From Thermoplasmata archaeon (GTDB lineage: Archaea > Thermoplasmatota > Thermoplasmata > Lutacidiplasmatales > UBA184), in NCBI GenBank assembly GCA_030040625.1, contig JASHTI010000044.1, positions 1 through 34,380 of the forward strand: 34,380 nt of DNA, written 5' to 3'. This document shows positions 4,680-23,263 of the stretch, one piece after another; positions within the stretch are counted from its first letter, which is position 1, and every line of letters begins with the position of its first letter. A program made the translations under genes and the position numbers. Below the pieces are notes generated by a model, which worked only from the letters and a program-made list of their open reading frames with translations, was not told the origin of the DNA and did no database searches.

Positions 4680-5009
4680 ATGGTCGCGGTCGAGGTGACT
4701 CCGGCGGCGCGGGATCAGGTCCTCAAGATCATGGACCGGCAGCAGAAGCCCGGCGCGGCGCTCCGGCTCTACGTGCAGGGAGGCGGCTGCTCGGGACTCA
4801 CCTACGGCATGAGCTTCGACCACCAGGAGACCGGGGACGAGGTCGCCTACCGGGACGGGGGCCTGACCGTCGTCGTCGACCGGGCCAGCGCTCCGCTGCT
4901 CGACGGGCTCCGGGTCGATTTCCTGCTCGGCCTCGAGCAGTCCGGCTTCAAGATCGTGAACCCGAACGCGAAGGCGACCTGCTCGTGCGGCAAGTCGTTC
5001 TCGGCCTAG
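4680..5009 (+). CDS. A-type iron-sulfur cluster carrier (IscA/HesB family), canonical
   Basis: VTPAARDQVLKIM...LYVQGGGCSGLTYGMSFD...SGFKIVNPNAKATCSCGKSF: the C and CxC cluster ligands are all present. Confidence 0.93.
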   Translation: MVAVEVTPAARDQVLKIMDRQQKPGAALRLYVQGGGCSGLTYGMSFDHQETGDEVAYRDGGLTVVVDRASAPLLDGLRVDFLLGLEQSGFKIVNPNAKATCSCGKSFSA

Positions 5010-5081
5010 TGCGCGGCGGGCCACCGCGCTTTATACTCGGCACGGCGTCTAGGCTTGGGGTACGGAAGGAGGGCCCCGCGC

Positions 5082-5522
5082 ATGAGCGATAGTGAAGGAT
5101 TGAAACTCAACGTTACGCAAGAGGCGCAGGATCAGGTCCGGGAGCTCATCAAGGGCCAGAAGCCCGGAACGGCGGTCCGCGTCTACCTCCAGTCCGGGGG
5201 CGGCGGCGGTGGCTGCGGCTCCGGCGGCGGTGGCTGCGGATCGGGAGGCTGCAACTGTGGCGACAGCCACGGCGGCGGCGGCCCGGCGTTCGGGATGGCG
5301 TTCGACCGGCCCCGCAACGGCGACCAGGTCGTTCCGATCGACGGCTTCTCGATCGTCGTCGACGATCTGAGCGCGGAGCTCCTGAAGGGCGCGACGATCG
5401 ACTACGTCCAGGACCTGAACGCCTCCGGATTCAAGATCACCTCGCTGACGGCGCCGACCCCCCCGACGGGGGCCGGTGGCGGTGGCTGCGGGTGCGGATC
5501 CGGCGGCTGCGGGTGCGGCTAG
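5082..5522 (+). CDS. A-type carrier paralogue with Gly/Cys-rich insertion and Cys-rich C-terminal tail
   Basis: MSDSEGLKLNVTQEAQDQVRELIKGQKPGTAVRVYLQSGGGGGGCGSGGGGCGSGGCNCGDSHGGGGPAFGMAFDRPRNGDQV...DYVQDLNASGFKITSLTAPTPPTGAGGGGCGCGSGGCGCG. Aligns by eye to the upstream paralogue. SD-like GGAAGGAGGG lies upstream of the ATG. Confidence 0.85.
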   Translation: MSDSEGLKLNVTQEAQDQVRELIKGQKPGTAVRVYLQSGGGGGGCGSGGGGCGSGGCNCGDSHGGGGPAFGMAFDRPRNGDQVVPIDGFSIVVDDLSAELLKGATIDYVQDLNASGFKITSLTAPTPPTGAGGGGCGCGSGGCGCG

Positions 5523-5606: not shown

Positions 5607-6587
5607 GTGCCCTCCGCTCGCAAGCGTTCCGGCGCTGCGCCGGCGGTCGTCGACTGGCTGCTGGAGCCGGAACAGCCGGCGGTCCGCTACCGGACGCTGA
5701 CCGAGCTACTCGGGCGCCCCGCCGCGGACCCGGAGGTCCGGGCCGCCCGATCGGCGATCCCGAAGGTCGGGTTCGTCCCCGCGTTGATGGAGGGGCGCAC
5801 GCCGGACGGCGGGTGGAGCGCGGACCGCACCCTGTACGTGCCGAAGTACCTCTCCACCAACTGGCGAATGAACGTCCTGGCCGACCTCGGCGTCGACCGT
5901 TCCTGGCCGGCGATCGCGAAGTCGAGCGAGTTGTGGATGGCGCGATACCCGCTCGCCGGCGGCGGCGTCGGCGGCAACTCGAAGGGGACCGGCCACCACT
6001 GCCTGGTCGGGAGCATGACCCGCTCGCTGATCCGGCTCGGCTACGGCGACGACCCGCGGATCCGTCGGAGCCTCGACTGGCTGGTCGAGACGGCCGACCC
6101 GAAGGGGGGCTGGTCTTGCTTCGGCCGCGGTCGCAACCTCGACTCCTGGGAGGGGCTGAGCGCCTTCGCGGCGTACCCCCGCGACCGATGGACCGCGCCG
6201 ATGCAGCGGACCGTGGAGCGGGCGAGCGAGTTCTTCCTGGAGCGGGAGCTGCACCGGCAGGGGGCCGAGTACCCGCCGTGGTTCCGCTTCCACTATCCGG
6301 TCCACTACTACTACGATCTCCTGATCGGGCTCGATCTGCTCACGTCGCTCGGGTACTCCGACGACCGCCGATTGCGGTTCGCCCGCGAACACCTCCTCGC
6401 GAAGCGCCGACCGGACGGCCGCTGGCTCCTCGACGCTCAGCACCCGGATGTCGAGGGGGGCATGGCGGCGTGGTTCGCGCGACACCCGAAGGACCGGCCG
6501 ACCCCGCTGGAGCTCGAGGCGGCCGGCGCGCCGAGCAAGCTCGTGACCCTGACGGCCCTCAAGGTGCTCGCCCGACTCGGCGCTTAG
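5607..6587 (+). CDS. Terpenoid cyclase/prenyltransferase (alpha/alpha toroid) fold protein
   Basis: Repeated toroid-type motifs: TPDGGWSADRTLYVPKY, RIRRSLDWLVETADPKGGWSCFGRGRNLDSWEGLSAF, AKRRPDGRWLLD. Confidence 0.7.
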   Translation: MPSARKRSGAAPAVVDWLLEPEQPAVRYRTLTELLGRPAADPEVRAARSAIPKVGFVPALMEGRTPDGGWSADRTLYVPKYLSTNWRMNVLADLGVDRSWPAIAKSSELWMARYPLAGGGVGGNSKGTGHHCLVGSMTRSLIRLGYGDDPRIRRSLDWLVETADPKGGWSCFGRGRNLDSWEGLSAFAAYPRDRWTAPMQRTVERASEFFLERELHRQGAEYPPWFRFHYPVHYYYDLLIGLDLLTSLGYSDDRRLRFAREHLLAKRRPDGRWLLDAQHPDVEGGMAAWFARHPKDRPTPLELEAAGAPSKLVTLTALKVLARLGA

Positions 6588-8621: not shown

Positions 8622-9935
8622 TCACGCGAGCGCCGCCGGCGGGGTCGGGGCCTCACGGCGTCCGGCGAGGAATGCCGGCAACAGCATCGCCGCCCCGGCG
8701 AGGGAGAGCGCGGCGGAGACCTCGAAGGCGAGCCCAGCGGTCCGATAGGTCCAGAGCGCTCCGACCAGGAGCGAGCCGCCGAGGATCGCCATCCCCTGGA
8801 TGAGGCCGAGCCAACCGTAGGCGGTCCCGGCGAGCGCCGCCGGCACGCGGCGGCCGACCCACGCCGACTCCGCGACCCCCTGGAGCGACACCTGGACCCC
8901 GGCGACCGAGAACGCCAAGATCCCGCCGAGGAGGCCCGAGTCGCCGATCAGGAACAGGTCGACGAGCGCGAACAGGGCGAACGACAGCGCGACGAACCCG
9001 AGTCCGGGAAGCCGGTCGACCCCGCGGCCGACCGGGTACGACAGGCCCGCGAAGATCAGGTTGTACAGCAGGTAGAGCAGGAGCGCGGCGACGACGGCCC
9101 CGGTCGCGGAGCCGCCCGAGCTCGGCAGAAGGTTCTCGCCGACTCTCAGGAGCGCGAGGAGGATGCTGAAGTATCCGAGCCCGAAGACCGCCTCCGCCAG
9201 CAGGAAGAGGCGGAACGAGGCCGGGAATTCGCGCCAGCCGGGCCGCGGGGCGGTCGGCTCGACGGCCGCGGGGCGCGCCGCCCGGTCCCGGACGAACAGC
9301 AGCAGGATCGCCACCGCCGCGAAGCCGGGGAGGACGCTGACCGCGAAGATCGTCCGGAAGCCGCTGAGGCCGCGGTCCAGCAGGAGCAGGATCGCCGTCA
9401 GCGTCCCCAGCACCGCGCCCAGCGAGTCGAGCGCCTGCTCAAGGCCGAAGGCGATCCCCTGGCTCTCGGCGGGGGTCGCGTTCGAGACGATCGCGCTCTT
9501 GATCGGCTGACGGGAGCCCCGCCCGAGCCAGGCGCCGACCCGGAGGATCAGCACCTCGGGCCAGACGACGGCGATCGCCAGGAGGCCGTGGCTGACCGTC
9601 GTCGTCAGGTAGCCGTAGGCCCCGCGGACCTTGCGCCCGGTCCCGGCCGCCCAGCGCGAGCCGGCGACCGTCTGGATGCCGCTCTGCGCGAACTGCGCCG
9701 CCCCGTCGACGAGCCCGACGATGAACGGGGAGGCGCCGAGCGAGAAGGCGAGAAAGAACGGTACGACCGGAAGGATCATCTCGTAGGACCAGTCCGCGAA
9801 CAGGCTGACGATGGAGATCGACCAGACGTCCGGGGGGATCCGCGGTCGACGGCCCGGTGTCCCGGGACCTCCCCTGCCCGGCGTCGGCGCGCCCATCGGC
9901 GGGGCTACGGGCCGTCGCTTATCCCTCCGCGGCAC
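8622..9935 (-). CDS. Major facilitator superfamily transporter
   Basis: About 12 hydrophobic segments; MFS-like GLVDGAAQFAQSGIQTVAGSRWAAGTGRKVRGAYGYL and LRVGAWLGRGSRQPIKSAIVS. Confidence 0.82.
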   Translation of the reverse strand: MPRRDKRRPVAPPMGAPTPGRGGPGTPGRRPRIPPDVWSISIVSLFADWSYEMILPVVPFFLAFSLGASPFIVGLVDGAAQFAQSGIQTVAGSRWAAGTGRKVRGAYGYLTTTVSHGLLAIAVVWPEVLILRVGAWLGRGSRQPIKSAIVSNATPAESQGIAFGLEQALDSLGAVLGTLTAILLLLDRGLSGFRTIFAVSVLPGFAAVAILLLFVRDRAARPAAVEPTAPRPGWREFPASFRLFLLAEAVFGLGYFSILLALLRVGENLLPSSGGSATGAVVAALLLYLLYNLIFAGLSYPVGRGVDRLPGLGFVALSFALFALVDLFLIGDSGLLGGILAFSVAGVQVSLQGVAESAWVGRRVPAALAGTAYGWLGLIQGMAILGGSLLVGALWTYRTAGLAFEVSAALSLAGAAMLLPAFLAGRREAPTPPAALA

Positions 9936-18252: not shown

Positions 18253-19206
18253 CTAGCCGCGCCACGGCCGCGGGGTCCGGCCGAGCAGCAGATCGCGGAC
18301 CGCGACGAGGTGGGGGGAACCGAGCGCCACGAGGACCCCGCCGACGACCACCACCGCCCCCACCGCCGCGAGCGGCGGGACGACCGCGTGGCTCACCGTT
18401 AGGTCGAGCGCCCAGGAGATCGGGAACCCGAGGACGAGCACGCTGGAGGCGACGCCCAGCTCCACCCGGGCGAGCCCCGGATACCAGGTGAGCACGAAGG
18501 CGGCGAGCAGCGCGGCGCTGATCCCGACCCACATCCACTCGGCGGGGGAGTAGCTCACGACCGTTCCCCAACCGCCGAGGGCCAGGAGGTACGCCGAGAG
18601 GAACACCGCGCCGAACCCCATCCGCCCGAGGGCGACGACCGATCCGCGCAGCCGGCGCAGCGCGTGCTTGGAGACCGTGTACTCGGCGGCCCAGAGGAGG
18701 GTCGCCGCCAGCACGTAGGCCGAGCCGTCGGTCCAGATCGGCGACAGGAGCGAGAGCAGGAGCAGATTGCCGCCCAGGATGAGCGCGGCCGCGAGGGCGA
18801 GACGCGGATGGGCCCGCTCTCGCAGCGCGACGATCCCGAAGACGGTGGCGAAGATGAACAGCGTCCGGTAGACGAACGAGGCGGTCAGGGTGCCGTGCGC
18901 CGCGGTCGCCAACTGCAGCCCCCGGAAGAAGAGGACGAACGGCACCGCTCCCCCGATCAGCCCGATGACCGCGAGGGTGCCGAGGTCCCGGGGACGGAGC
19001 GAGGAGCCGGAGCCCACGAGGGCGAGCGCGCCGAACGGTAGGACGACCGCCGCGACCGCGAGGTTTCGGATCGTCACGAACGCGGTCGAACCGGTCCCGG
19101 CGACCGCGTAGCCGTTGACGAAGGTGGAGACGCCGCTGATCACGGCGGTCGCGAGCACGAGCAGCACGCCCGCCCCGAGCGCCCCGCGTCCGCCCAGATC
19201 GCTCAT
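18253..19206 (-). CDS. EamA/DMT-family transporter
   Basis: Ten hydrophobic segments; FVTIRNLAVAAVVLPFGALALV, AVPFVLFFRGLQLATAAHGTLTASFVYRTLFIFATVFGI. ATGA overlap with the hypC stop. Confidence 0.8.
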   Translation of the reverse strand: MSDLGGRGALGAGVLLVLATAVISGVSTFVNGYAVAGTGSTAFVTIRNLAVAAVVLPFGALALVGSGSSLRPRDLGTLAVIGLIGGAVPFVLFFRGLQLATAAHGTLTASFVYRTLFIFATVFGIVALRERAHPRLALAAALILGGNLLLLSLLSPIWTDGSAYVLAATLLWAAEYTVSKHALRRLRGSVVALGRMGFGAVFLSAYLLALGGWGTVVSYSPAEWMWVGISAALLAAFVLTWYPGLARVELGVASSVLVLGFPISWALDLTVSHAVVPPLAAVGAVVVVGGVLVALGSPHLVAVRDLLLGRTPRPWRG

Positions 19207-19502
19207 CGGGGTCCGTCCTCCGGAGCCGACGGATCCCGGGTCCCCGGGCCCTCCCGGCCCGTCGCCGTCCCTGTCGGGGCGACCGTCACCGACTCGAGCA
19301 ACCCCAGCGCCTCCCGGGCCTCGGCCTCCGACAGGCGGCGGTAGACGAAGCCGGCCTGTACCAGCACCCAGTCGCCGACCTGCGCTTCGGGGAGGTAGAC
19401 GAGCTGGGCTCGCCGTCGGCTTGCGCCATACTCGATCTCGGCGACGGGGACGCCCCCCTCGTCATGGACGGCGACCAGGCGTCCGGGGATCGCGAGGCAC
19501 AT
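19203..19502 (-). CDS. hypC: Hydrogenase maturation chaperone HypC
   Basis: MCLAIPGRLVAVHDEGGVPVAEIEYGASRRRAQLVYLPEAQVGDWVLVQAGFVYRRLSEAEA: MC(L)xIPG signature with OB-fold body. Confidence 0.92.
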   Translation of the reverse strand: MCLAIPGRLVAVHDEGGVPVAEIEYGASRRRAQLVYLPEAQVGDWVLVQAGFVYRRLSEAEAREALGLLESVTVAPTGTATGREGPGTRDPSAPEDGPR

Positions 19503-19511
19503 CGGCGGACC

Positions 19512-19817
19512 TCACCCGTCCCGAACGGAAGAAGGCGGCGACGGCCGCACGGCCGCCGGTCCAAAGGTAACGGTACGCAGCAGCAGGGAGGCCGCGCGAG
19601 GGTCGGTCGGGGACGGCAGCAGCTCGACCTCGAGGACGGCCGCTTCGGCGGGGCCCCCGGCCATCGCCCGGGCCCAGAGCTGCCGGAGCCGGGGCTCATC
19701 GACGTGGGCGAGCGGCCCCAGCGCCACCGAGGCACGAAGGATCGCTGCTCCGCCCGCGCCGCGGGAGAGCTCTTCGACCTTACGGCGCAGGTCGCGCATG
19801 AGCGCCTCTTCGTGCAT
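19512..19817 (-). CDS. hypA: HypA-like nickel metallochaperone lacking the zinc domain Cys residues
   Basis: MHEEALMRDLRRKVEELSRGAGGAAILRASVALGPLAHVDEPRLRQLWARAMAGGPAEAAVLEVEL: N-terminal MHE and HypA fold pattern. No Cys in the whole protein. Confidence 0.72.
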   Translation of the reverse strand: MHEEALMRDLRRKVEELSRGAGGAAILRASVALGPLAHVDEPRLRQLWARAMAGGPAEAAVLEVELLPSPTDPRAASLLLRTVTFGPAAVRPSPPSSVRDG

Positions 19818-19820
19818 CGC

Positions 19821-20303
19821 TCACCCCGTCTCCGTCGGCCACGCTTGCAGCTCGCGGACGATCGCCTCGGCCGCCCGCGGCACCCCGGCGGCGACCTCCT
19901 CGCTCAGCGTCGGTCCGAAGCCGAGCTCTCCGGCCTCGATCAGATACACGACCAGCCGGCGCGGCGCCCGGCCGAGCTCGACGGCGAGGGCATAGGCGTC
20001 CGGCAGCGAGAGCGCGTGCGACGAGGTCGACGGGCCGATCGGCGCCCGGGCGAGCGCCGCGCCCTCGAGGCGAAGTACGCTCCCGGCGGTGGCGCCGGTG
20101 CGGCCGGCGTCCACCACGATCGCCGGCGCGGCGTCGCTCCAGAGCTCCAGCAGCTGCAACGGCTCGGCGACCCGCTCGACGAGCGCGACGGAGGGGGAGA
20201 GGCGTCCCCGCAGCGCCCGAACCACGCGCGGCCCGCATCCGTCGTCCCGGCGGGCGGGCTCCCCGAGGCCGAGGACCATCGGTCGGCCGGCGGGGGTGCT
20301 CAT
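19821..20303 (-). CDS. [NiFe]-hydrogenase maturation protease (HycI/HybD family)
   Basis: VLGLGEPARRDDGCGPRVVRAL; AIVVDAGRTGATAGSVLRL; SSHALSLPDAYALA: Asp/Asp/His metal-site residues in order. Confidence 0.85.
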   Translation of the reverse strand: MSTPAGRPMVLGLGEPARRDDGCGPRVVRALRGRLSPSVALVERVAEPLQLLELWSDAAPAIVVDAGRTGATAGSVLRLEGAALARAPIGPSTSSHALSLPDAYALAVELGRAPRRLVVYLIEAGELGFGPTLSEEVAAGVPRAAEAIVRELQAWPTETG

Positions 20304-21604
20304 GCCGCGCCCTCGCGCCGGAGGTCCAAGCGAAGGAAGTGCGTGGCGCAGGAGATGCAGGGGTCGTGGTTGCGGATCGCCTTCTCGCAGGCGTCCGCGA
20401 TCCCGGCGTCGTCCCGGTCGACGGAGCGCCGCACGACGCCGCGGAGGTCGTCCTCGATCCGCATCTGGTTCTGCGAGGTCGGCGCCACGATCCGAGCCTC
20501 CTCGATGCGGCCGTCGGCCCCGAGGCGGTAGCGGTGGTACAGCATCCCGCGCGGCGCCTCGGTGATCGCCGCACCGGTGCCGCCGGACACGCGATCGGGG
20601 GCGGCCACCCAGGCCCGCTCGGGAGGCTGGTAGCGGTCCAGCAGGCGGAGCGCCTCCTCGCACGCGAAAAGGATCTCCACGGCCCGGACCTGGATCGACC
20701 GGTACGGGTTCCGCACCTCGCGACCGAGGCCGGCGTGCCGCGCGGCCGAGGCCGCCCGGGGGGTGAGCCGATCCGAGTTCAGGCTGTACCGGGCGAGCGG
20801 CCCGACCAGGTACGAACCGCCGCCGCGACGACGGCAATGCAGGGCGTGGGAGTGGGCGACCTGGACCTCCTCGAACTCGCGTTCGAAGTCCGCGGCGTCC
20901 AGCGAGAGCCCGGCGCTGGAGGTGATCCGTCCCTCGTTCATCGGATACTCCTCGGGGTGGCGGAGCGCGACGAACTCGTACGGTTCGTCGACGTCCGGGT
21001 AGGCGAGCTCCTCCGTGAAGCGGACGGTCGCCTCGGCGAGGTCGATCGCCGACCGAAGGGTCGTGCGCAGCGCCCCGAGCTCCTCCGTCGACGGGAGACG
21101 GTAGAACCCGCCGACGCGCACGTTCACCGGGTGGATCTCTCGCCCCCCGAGGACCGAGAGGACGGTGTTGCCGGCCTTCTTCAGCGCGAGCCCCTGCCGG
21201 ACGAGCTCCGGCCGCTCCTTGGCGAGGCGCACGGCGTCCGGGAGCCCCAGGAAGTCGGGGGCGTGGAGCAGGTAGAGGTGCAGGGCGTGGCTCTCGATCC
21301 ACTCGCCGCAGTACAGCACCCGCCGGAGGTCCCGGAGGGCTCCGTCGACGCGGATCCCGAGCGCCCGCTCGACCGCGTGGCAGGCGCTCATCTGGTAGGC
21401 GACCGGGCAGATCCCGCAGATCCGCGCGGTGATGTCCGGCGCCTCGCCGTACATCCTCCCGCGCAGCAGCGCCTCGAAGAAGCGGGGCGGCTCGAAGATG
21501 CGCAGTTCGATCTCCGCCACCTCGCGTCCCGCGAGCCGAACCCGCAACGCCCCCTCCCCCTCCACCCGGGCGAGGTAGTCGACGGCGATCGTCCGCTCCG
21601 TCAC
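20300..21604 (-). CDS. hydA: Group 3b-type [NiFe]-hydrogenase large (alpha) subunit
   Basis: L1 [20 protein letters not shown]2 [21 protein letters not shown], with a short C-terminal extension for proteolytic maturation. GTG start in GTGA overlap with hydD stop. Confidence 0.92.
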
Positions 21605-22398
21605 GGGGCGCCTCCGGCCGGGGCGGCGGCGGACTCGGAGGCCTCGCGGAAGGCGGGGGCCGCGGCGTTGAACGTCCGGAAGACCCGCTGGACATCCGCC
21701 GGGGCGAGGCCGAGCTCGCGGAGCCGGCGCACGAGGGAGGGGGCGTTCGGCGTGTCCTGCGGGCCGAAGCAGCCGTAGCAGCCGCGGTGGTACGCCGGGC
21801 AGATCGCCCCGCAGCCGGTCTGGGTCACCGGGCCGAGGCACGGGGTCCCGTGCGCGACCACGACGCAGACGTTGCCGCGGCGTTTGCACTCCCCGCAGAC
21901 GCTTTCGGTCGGGACGTTCGGGGCACGGTCCCCGAGGAACGCCGAGATCACCTCGAGAAGCTGGCCTTTGTTGATCGGGCAGCCGCGGAGCTCGAAGTCG
22001 ACCGGAACGTGCGCCGAGATCGGCGTCGAGGTCGCGAGCGTCGCGATGTACTCCGGCCGGGCGTAGACGGCCCGCGCGAACTCCGCGACGTCCCCGAAGT
22101 TCCGGAGCGCCTGGATCCCCCCGGCCGTCGCGCAGGCGCCGATCGTTAGGAGGAAGCGCGCCTCCGCCCGCACCTGGCGTACGAGCTCGAGGTCGTGCGG
22201 GGTCGTCACGGAGCCCTCCACGATCGCCAGGTCGTACGGCCCCTCCACCGTAGCGCTGGACGCCTCGCGGAACAGGGCGATCTCGACCGCCCCGGCGACG
22301 GCGAGCAGCTCGTCCTCGCAGTCGAGCAAGGTCAGCTGGCAGCCGTCGCACGAGGCGAACTTGTAGACCGCCACGCGGGGACGGGGGACCCGCGGCAT
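21601..22398 (-). CDS. hydD: [NiFe]-hydrogenase small (delta) subunit
   Basis: [101 protein letters not shown]. Confidence 0.93.
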
Positions 22399-22399
22399 G

Positions 22400-23263
22400 C
22401 TACAGCTCCCGAACGCCGAGGTACGGCGCGATCCGCGCGTACGGAAGGACCGGACCGTCGCGGCAGACGAACTCCGGACCGAACTGGCAGTGGCCGCAGA
22501 AGCCGACGGCGCACTTCATGTTCCGCTCCATCGACAGGAAGATCGCCTCGGCGGGGACGCCCCGCTCGAGCAGCGCCTTCGCCGTGAACCGCATCATCAC
22601 CTCCGGGCCGCAGACGAACGCGACGGTGTTCGCCGGATCGAAGCGTGCATCCGGCAGCCGGGTCGTGACGACGCCGACGTCGCCGTACCAGTCCCGTCCG
22701 GCGGCGTCGACGGTCACCTGGAACCGAAGGTCGCTCCGCGCGCGCCAGCGCTGGATCTCCTCGTAGAAGACCAAGCTCTTCGGCGTCCGGGCCCCGTAGA
22801 CGACCTCGATCCGCCCGAATCGCTCCCGCTCGGCGAGCAGCCGATAGAGCAGCGGTCGAAGCGGCGGCAGGCCGAGGCCTCCGGCCGCGAGCACCACATC
22901 GCGGCCGACCGCTCGCTCGAGGGGCCAGCCGTTCCCGTACGGCCCGCGAACGCCGACGCAGCTGCCCGGGGGCGCGGCGAACAGCGCCCGGCTCGTCGCC
23001 CCCAGCGCCTGCACCGTGTGCACGAGCGCACCGTCCGGGGCGCCGGAGATCGAGATCGCGGCCTCGCCGATCCCGAAGGCGTACAGCATGTTGAACTGCC
23101 CGGGAGCGGACGACGGGGTGACGGCGCCATCGACCGGGGCGAGGACGAGGGTCGCGATGTCCGCCGTCTCCTCGGTGCGGCTCCGCACGCGGTACGGCAC
23201 CGGGGCGTACGGGCCCGCCGGCCCGACCGGAAGGCCCCCCGAGGTCGCCCGTTCAGAGGACAT
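22400..23263 (-). CDS. hydG: Hydrogenase gamma subunit: FAD/NAD(P)-binding oxidoreductase
   Basis: [115 protein letters not shown]. Confidence 0.92.

Follow-up and report, generated by a model that had tools for sequence, protein, structure and literature searches.

A canonical A-type protein has three cysteines per subunit, and a partner subunit is needed to complete the cluster, as seen in IscA structures. The locus described here encodes a protein of this fold with eight. The window, the whole stretch of 34,380 nucleotides that was analysed, is one contig of a 1.5-Mb MAG (74% complete) of a Thermoplasmata archaeon. It contains a canonical carrier gene followed by a gene for a variant with glycine- and cysteine-rich expansions; the features of this gene pair are collected in Table 1.

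Table 1. Features of the carrier gene pair and its leader (positions in the window).
Feature	Position	Strand	Details
Canonical A-type carrier (ErpA/IscA-like)	4680..5009	+	109 aa; three Cys (GGGCSGL, CSCGKSF)
TATA box (TTTATA) of the variant gene	5030..5035	+	Inside the gap 3' of the canonical gene
Leader hairpin	5057..5077	+	GGGG (5057-5060) pairs with CCCC (5074-5077); Shine-Dalgarno GGAGG (5068-5072) in its loop
Variant HesB/IscA-fold protein	5082..5522	+	146 aa; 8 Cys (4 loop + 4 tail)
Gly/Cys loop, residues 38-69	5193..5288	+	32 aa; replaces the single-Cys ligand loop (alignment, loop table)
Gly/Cys tail, residues 120-146	5439..5519	+	27 aa; ends CGCGSGGCGCG, two CxC pairs (tail table)

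An A-type protein with cysteine-rich loop and tail

In profile searches the variant protein matched PF01521 over residues 8-121 with 42.8 bits, above the gathering cut-off of 26.3, while the canonical neighbour scored 61.2 bits with the same profile and 112.8 bits with TIGR00049 (cut-off 58.8). The variant fell under the NCBIfam cut-offs (TIGR00049, 45.4 against 58.8; ErpA, 41.4 against 117; IscA, 24.4 against 150.6). Its best NCBIfam match by E-value was NF038090 (HesB-like), at 52.5 bits and under the cut-off of 85; this profile was matched at E 0.001 or better by all 32 members of the alignment.

Translation places the loop cysteines at C45, C52, C57 and C59, accompanied by one histidine, and the tail cysteines at C136, C138, C143 and C145. 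All eight sit in the loop or the tail and the core has none, so that the canonical ligand pattern, one loop cysteine plus a CxC in the tail, is replaced by four cysteines at each site. The sequence-only reading had the open reading frame, the loop and tail stretches that it quoted and their cysteine counts exactly as translated; its contrast of eight cysteines with three in the neighbour agrees with our counts, and its placing of the expansions exactly at the two cluster-ligand sites is borne out by the alignment and the loop and tail tables. The ATG at 5082 is the likely start codon, with a Shine-Dalgarno sequence (AGGAGG) at 5067-5072. An in-frame TTG at 5055 was considered and rejected as the start, being located 5' of the conserved ribosome-binding site.

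The AlphaFold2 model of the variant, built on a 32-sequence alignment, had a mean pLDDT of 63.9 and a pTM of 0.51, with core values of 70-90. Loop residues 38-66 and tail residues 124-146 had values below 50, and loop and tail are predicted to be disordered. Foldseek matched the model with a probability of 1.00 to the PDB entries 2apn, 1nwb, 1r94, 1s98, 1x0g, 2k4z and 2d2a, with TM-scores by target of 0.60-0.79; the structures matched were IscA, SufA, HI1723, AQ_1857 and DsrR. Together with the PF01521 score, the matches to IscA and SufA uphold the HesB/IscA fold proposed from the sequence alone.

Cysteine number and spacer length among homologues

Full-length expanded-loop orthologues were present in 28 of 37 genomes of the window's genus, together with one truncated copy. 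Some other genomes of the genus that are nearly complete (G013, 93%; G019, 97%) yielded no copy of the gene, and it is therefore probably not essential there. The relatives that have named records are MAGs labelled Thermoplasmata archaeon, several of them with AcS or SubAcS isolate names; AcS1-45, AcS1-67, AcS4-93 and AcS5-116 are Lutacidiplasmatales genomes from acidic forest soils (PMC9287336), which makes Lutacidiplasmatales the very probable order of the window's genome.

Loop length ranged from 19 to 37 aa, with 15 different lengths among 53 distinct homologues. The loops of these proteins had four cysteines in 40, three in 12 and five in one, and the tails four in 43 and three in 10. The core was without cysteine in 39/39 homologues checked. 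The commonest layouts were CxC-x6-CxC in the loop and CxC-x4-CxC in the tail. The minimum number of changes on a tree was 34 for loop length, 35 for loop cysteine spacing and 10 for loop cysteine number, and in the tail 33 for length and 7 for cysteine number; these counts are rough, as the tree was built from core residues only, without loop and tail, offers few columns and leaves many forks open. The variance of cysteine number across distinct loops was 0.21, against 3.4 expected for random placement at the observed rate, a control that ignores relatedness. Loop codons tabulated in the first 26 proteins included 102 for cysteine (TGC/TGT) and zero CGN (arginine); CGN, like the cysteine codons, is one change away from GGN. 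In the loops of the full set there were 7 arginines in about 1,500 residues. The median dN/dS of the core was 0.19 over 255 pairs, indicating purifying selection.

These data show that cysteine number is held while the length and spacing of the glycine spacers drift freely. The conserved cysteines that the sequence-only reading called for were thus found in relatives (3-5 in the loop, 3-4 in the tail), and in place of the random glycine repeats without conserved cysteines that it had set against its own proposal, the spacers were random and the cysteine number held.

The gene pair and its neighbourhood

In 47 of 49 distinct loci the gene immediately 5' of the variant is the canonical carrier, at a gap of 70-95 bp (72 bp in the window), which bears out the earlier suggestion of a pairing with a canonical paralogue. 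A divergent class II glutamine amidotransferase gene is found beyond the canonical carrier in most loci; in L051, L055 and L061 a ThiS-family sulphur carrier gene adjoins it upstream of the pair. No gene next to the variant was recognised as one for metal resistance; the variant's sole strongly conserved partner is the canonical Fe-S carrier. SufB/SufD homologues were detected in all six genomes tested, the window's own genome among them.

Two other regions of the window were noted. A 326-aa protein without a Pfam match is encoded 3' of the carrier pair (5607-6587), and no relatives of it grouped at the same place in other loci. Further downstream, 19206-23263 contains a HypC-family gene, a hydrogenase small-subunit-like gene (Oxidored_q6) and an NAD-binding/DHODB Fe-S gene, which suggests a NiFe hydrogenase locus.

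Promoter and leader hairpin of the variant gene

At about -45 to -53, the listed upstream regions have TTTATA, TTAAATA or a similar sequence. From the TATA position we infer a transcript start near the first hairpin arm, so that the hairpin may sit at the extreme 5' end. Among about 50 related leaders, GGGG was found upstream in 38 of the 38 having the CCCC arm. Where the arms differed they were usually matched by their partner (GAGGC/GCCTC, AGGG/CCCT, GTCGG/CCGAC), and in several leaders a shortened arm was accompanied by a shortened partner. Because hairpin loop length varies, the arms are not brought into register by MAFFT. Given the high GC content, the folding energy was unremarkable (z from 0 to -0.9, not significant); the hairpin is supported because its two arms change jointly, and not by folding energy. 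The inverted repeat may work either as a hairpin in the RNA or as an operator in the DNA; the joint arm changes favour RNA. The leader motif has one copy in its own genome, and the leaders inspected for the other two A-type paralogues did not show it.

Paralogues and the origin of the loop

The sequence-only reading had taken the adjacent canonical carrier as the comparison, but the closest relative of the variant proved to be a third A-type paralogue (about 55-60% identity; loci L033, L034, L072-L086 and L123-L137). This protein shares the glycine-rich loop and cysteine-rich tail; its loop is short (about 12-17 aa, GGGGCCGGG) with two cysteines instead of four, and its tail has 4-6 cysteines. 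In the loci examined it sits with ABC transporter, SUI1 and rhodanese genes and not with the canonical carrier. The cluster in L072-L086 (for example L082:1006-6388) comprises an ABC ATPase, one or two ABC-2-like permeases, a SUI1 initiation-factor gene and a rhodanese-domain gene; in L072 and L074-L076 it also includes HemA, HemD and HemB genes.

The two-cysteine-loop paralogue occurs across the archaeal family, and the four-cysteine loop in the window's genus and one other (g1, g25); the latter arose in these two genera of one family. Several genomes hold both. In the tree the canonical carriers form a clean separate group (support 100). The two variant kinds separate almost completely, with two three-cysteine members falling outside the main four-cysteine group and, as an exception, three two-cysteine members that BLAST scored with the four-cysteine kind. 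L120, a paralogue of the two-cysteine kind, has independently gained a similar loop (GGGCGCGGGGCGCGGG; also given as GGSGGGCGCGGGGCGCGGG).

A GGGCGCGSGGCG-like tail at the second ligand site is found, as in the variant, in several A-type proteins of bacteria (L066-L071; Chthonomonadaceae, Eisenbacteria, Chloroflexi and others). Their first ligand site, unlike that of the variant, has the canonical one-cysteine loop or is without cysteine. The same combination of a Gly/Cys tail with a one-cysteine or cysteine-free loop was seen beyond the archaeal family in bacteria and other Thermoplasmata (L066-L071, L083, L084). Because the bacterial proteins share the tail, only the loop looks to be the new, lineage-specific part, although the genome scan for multi-cysteine loops used short peptide patterns and could miss bacterial cases. 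On this point the sequence-only reading is corrected.

The tail pattern was also considered as a genome-wide repeat or motif and was rejected, as it occurs once in its own genome and a related pattern is present in just 15 of 293 genomes of this phylum. A search for plasmid-borne relatives gave only weak partial matches in Azospirillum, the one annotated ErpA. A degenerate, cysteine-free A-type-like domain fused to DUF59/MIP18 (SufT-like, PF01883) is encoded at L087:3854-4543 (G000:C34, about 9076-9765), and the same fusion layout was found in L088, from another genome of the genus.

Proposed role and alternatives

In the variant both canonical ligand sites have been turned into flexible Gly/Ser spacers with four cysteines each, while the folded core is kept. 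We put at about even chances the reading that it is an A-type carrier particular to this lineage, each subunit having two Cys4 sites. Each Cys4 set would hold one metal centre alone, giving two complete sites per subunit, and the bound centre would most likely be a labile iron-sulphur cluster or an iron ion; Fe-S clusters are the likeliest content because of the A-type fold and the canonical partner. The protein, made under its own promoter and leader hairpin, may take clusters from the SufB/SufD machinery of the genome and pass them on, acting alone or as a heteromer with the adjoining canonical carrier.

Counted in favour of this carrier are the PF01521 score above cut-off, the structural matches to IscA, SufA and HI1723, the position of the expansions at the ligand sites, the held cysteine number, the independent loop of L120, the adjacency in 47/49 loci, the presence of SufB/SufD, the single occurrence of the tail pattern in its own genome, and the literature on IscA (PMC6495748) and ISCA1/ISCA2 (PMC5437272). 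Counted against it are the scores under the NCBIfam cut-offs, the missing gene in some nearly complete genomes and the three loop cysteines of about a quarter of members. A CxC-paired Cys4 set also suits Zn, Cu(I), Cd or As(III) equally with Fe-S, and the variant might be a buffer or metallochaperone for thiophilic metals on an A-type fold, in which loop and tail hold such ions in the manner of a small metallothionein and cluster carriage has been lost. We regard this as rather unlikely, yet it is a serious rival because the three cysteines of E. coli IscA bind zinc as well as iron (PMC6495748). Flexible glycine-rich cysteine sets of variable spacing resemble ion binding more than a rigid cluster cradle, and an apparent ArsM-type methyltransferase from the same class (L185, G201:C29) has a tail-module-like segment, GGGCGCGTGCCG, close to its start. 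A high cysteine content is not in itself diagnostic of a metallothionein-like buffer. The retained core fold and core constraint, the lack of any recognised metal-resistance gene alongside and the conserved Fe-S partner argue the other way.

The cysteines might instead bear sulfane sulphur or form disulphides, in which case the protein would carry persulphide or sulphur or would buffer thiol redox state. The ThiS-family gene near the pair, the rhodanese-domain gene clustered with the two-cysteine-loop sister and a best NCBIfam match, under cut-off, to a HesB-like subfamily that includes selenoproteins are in keeping with such a role, but the ThiS neighbour occurs in few loci only, and the conserved CxC-pair layout and A-type fold suit metal binding better; we consider it improbable. 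A functionless GC-rich codon repeat that expanded neutrally would account for the free variation of loop length and glycine number (15 lengths in 53 proteins). Such neutral slippage is rejected as extremely improbable because the cysteine count is conserved, near constant while loop length is not, and because codon use is skewed (102 cysteine codons against zero CGN in the first 26 proteins); the conserved promoter, ribosome-binding site and hairpin and the core dN/dS of about 0.19 also speak against it.

Within the preferred reading of the variant as a cluster carrier, a bolder version would make it a new functional class of A-type protein, with two autonomous Cys4 sites on disordered tethers in each subunit, no dimer interface needed for clusters to be held or stored or to move between loop and tail, and synthesis tuned by a gene-specific 5' hairpin; as a whole this is unlikely. 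It is the ligand sites themselves that evolution has edited, with cysteine count kept and geometry not, which would imply a chemistry that requires about four thiols per site without a fixed cradle.

Comparison with known carriers

No description of an A-type carrier with multi-cysteine loops was found in the literature searched, subscription papers being mostly outside its reach. An earlier survey found A-type carriers in hardly any archaea, which had gained them by gene transfer (PMC2682760); the present archaeal family has several A-type paralogues in one genome. Whether A-type proteins are cluster carriers or iron donors is described as still controversial (PMC10301553). E. coli IscA binds metal via three conserved cysteines, both iron and zinc, with zinc uptake of about 0.94 per monomer (PMC6495748), and mammalian ISCA1 and ISCA2 form a heterocomplex (PMC5437272).

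The best NCBIfam match of the variant is to HesB-like proteins that include selenoproteins (NF038090, TIGR01911), yet the variant has a multi-cysteine loop, and no selenocysteine codon was seen in its gene. With IscA, SufA and ErpA (PF01521) it shares the fold, the conserved core, the two ligand-site positions and adjacency to a canonical member. Unlike these proteins it scores under the NCBIfam equivalog cut-offs, and where they have three cysteines (one plus a CxC) it has eight, in two flexible glycine-rich sets.
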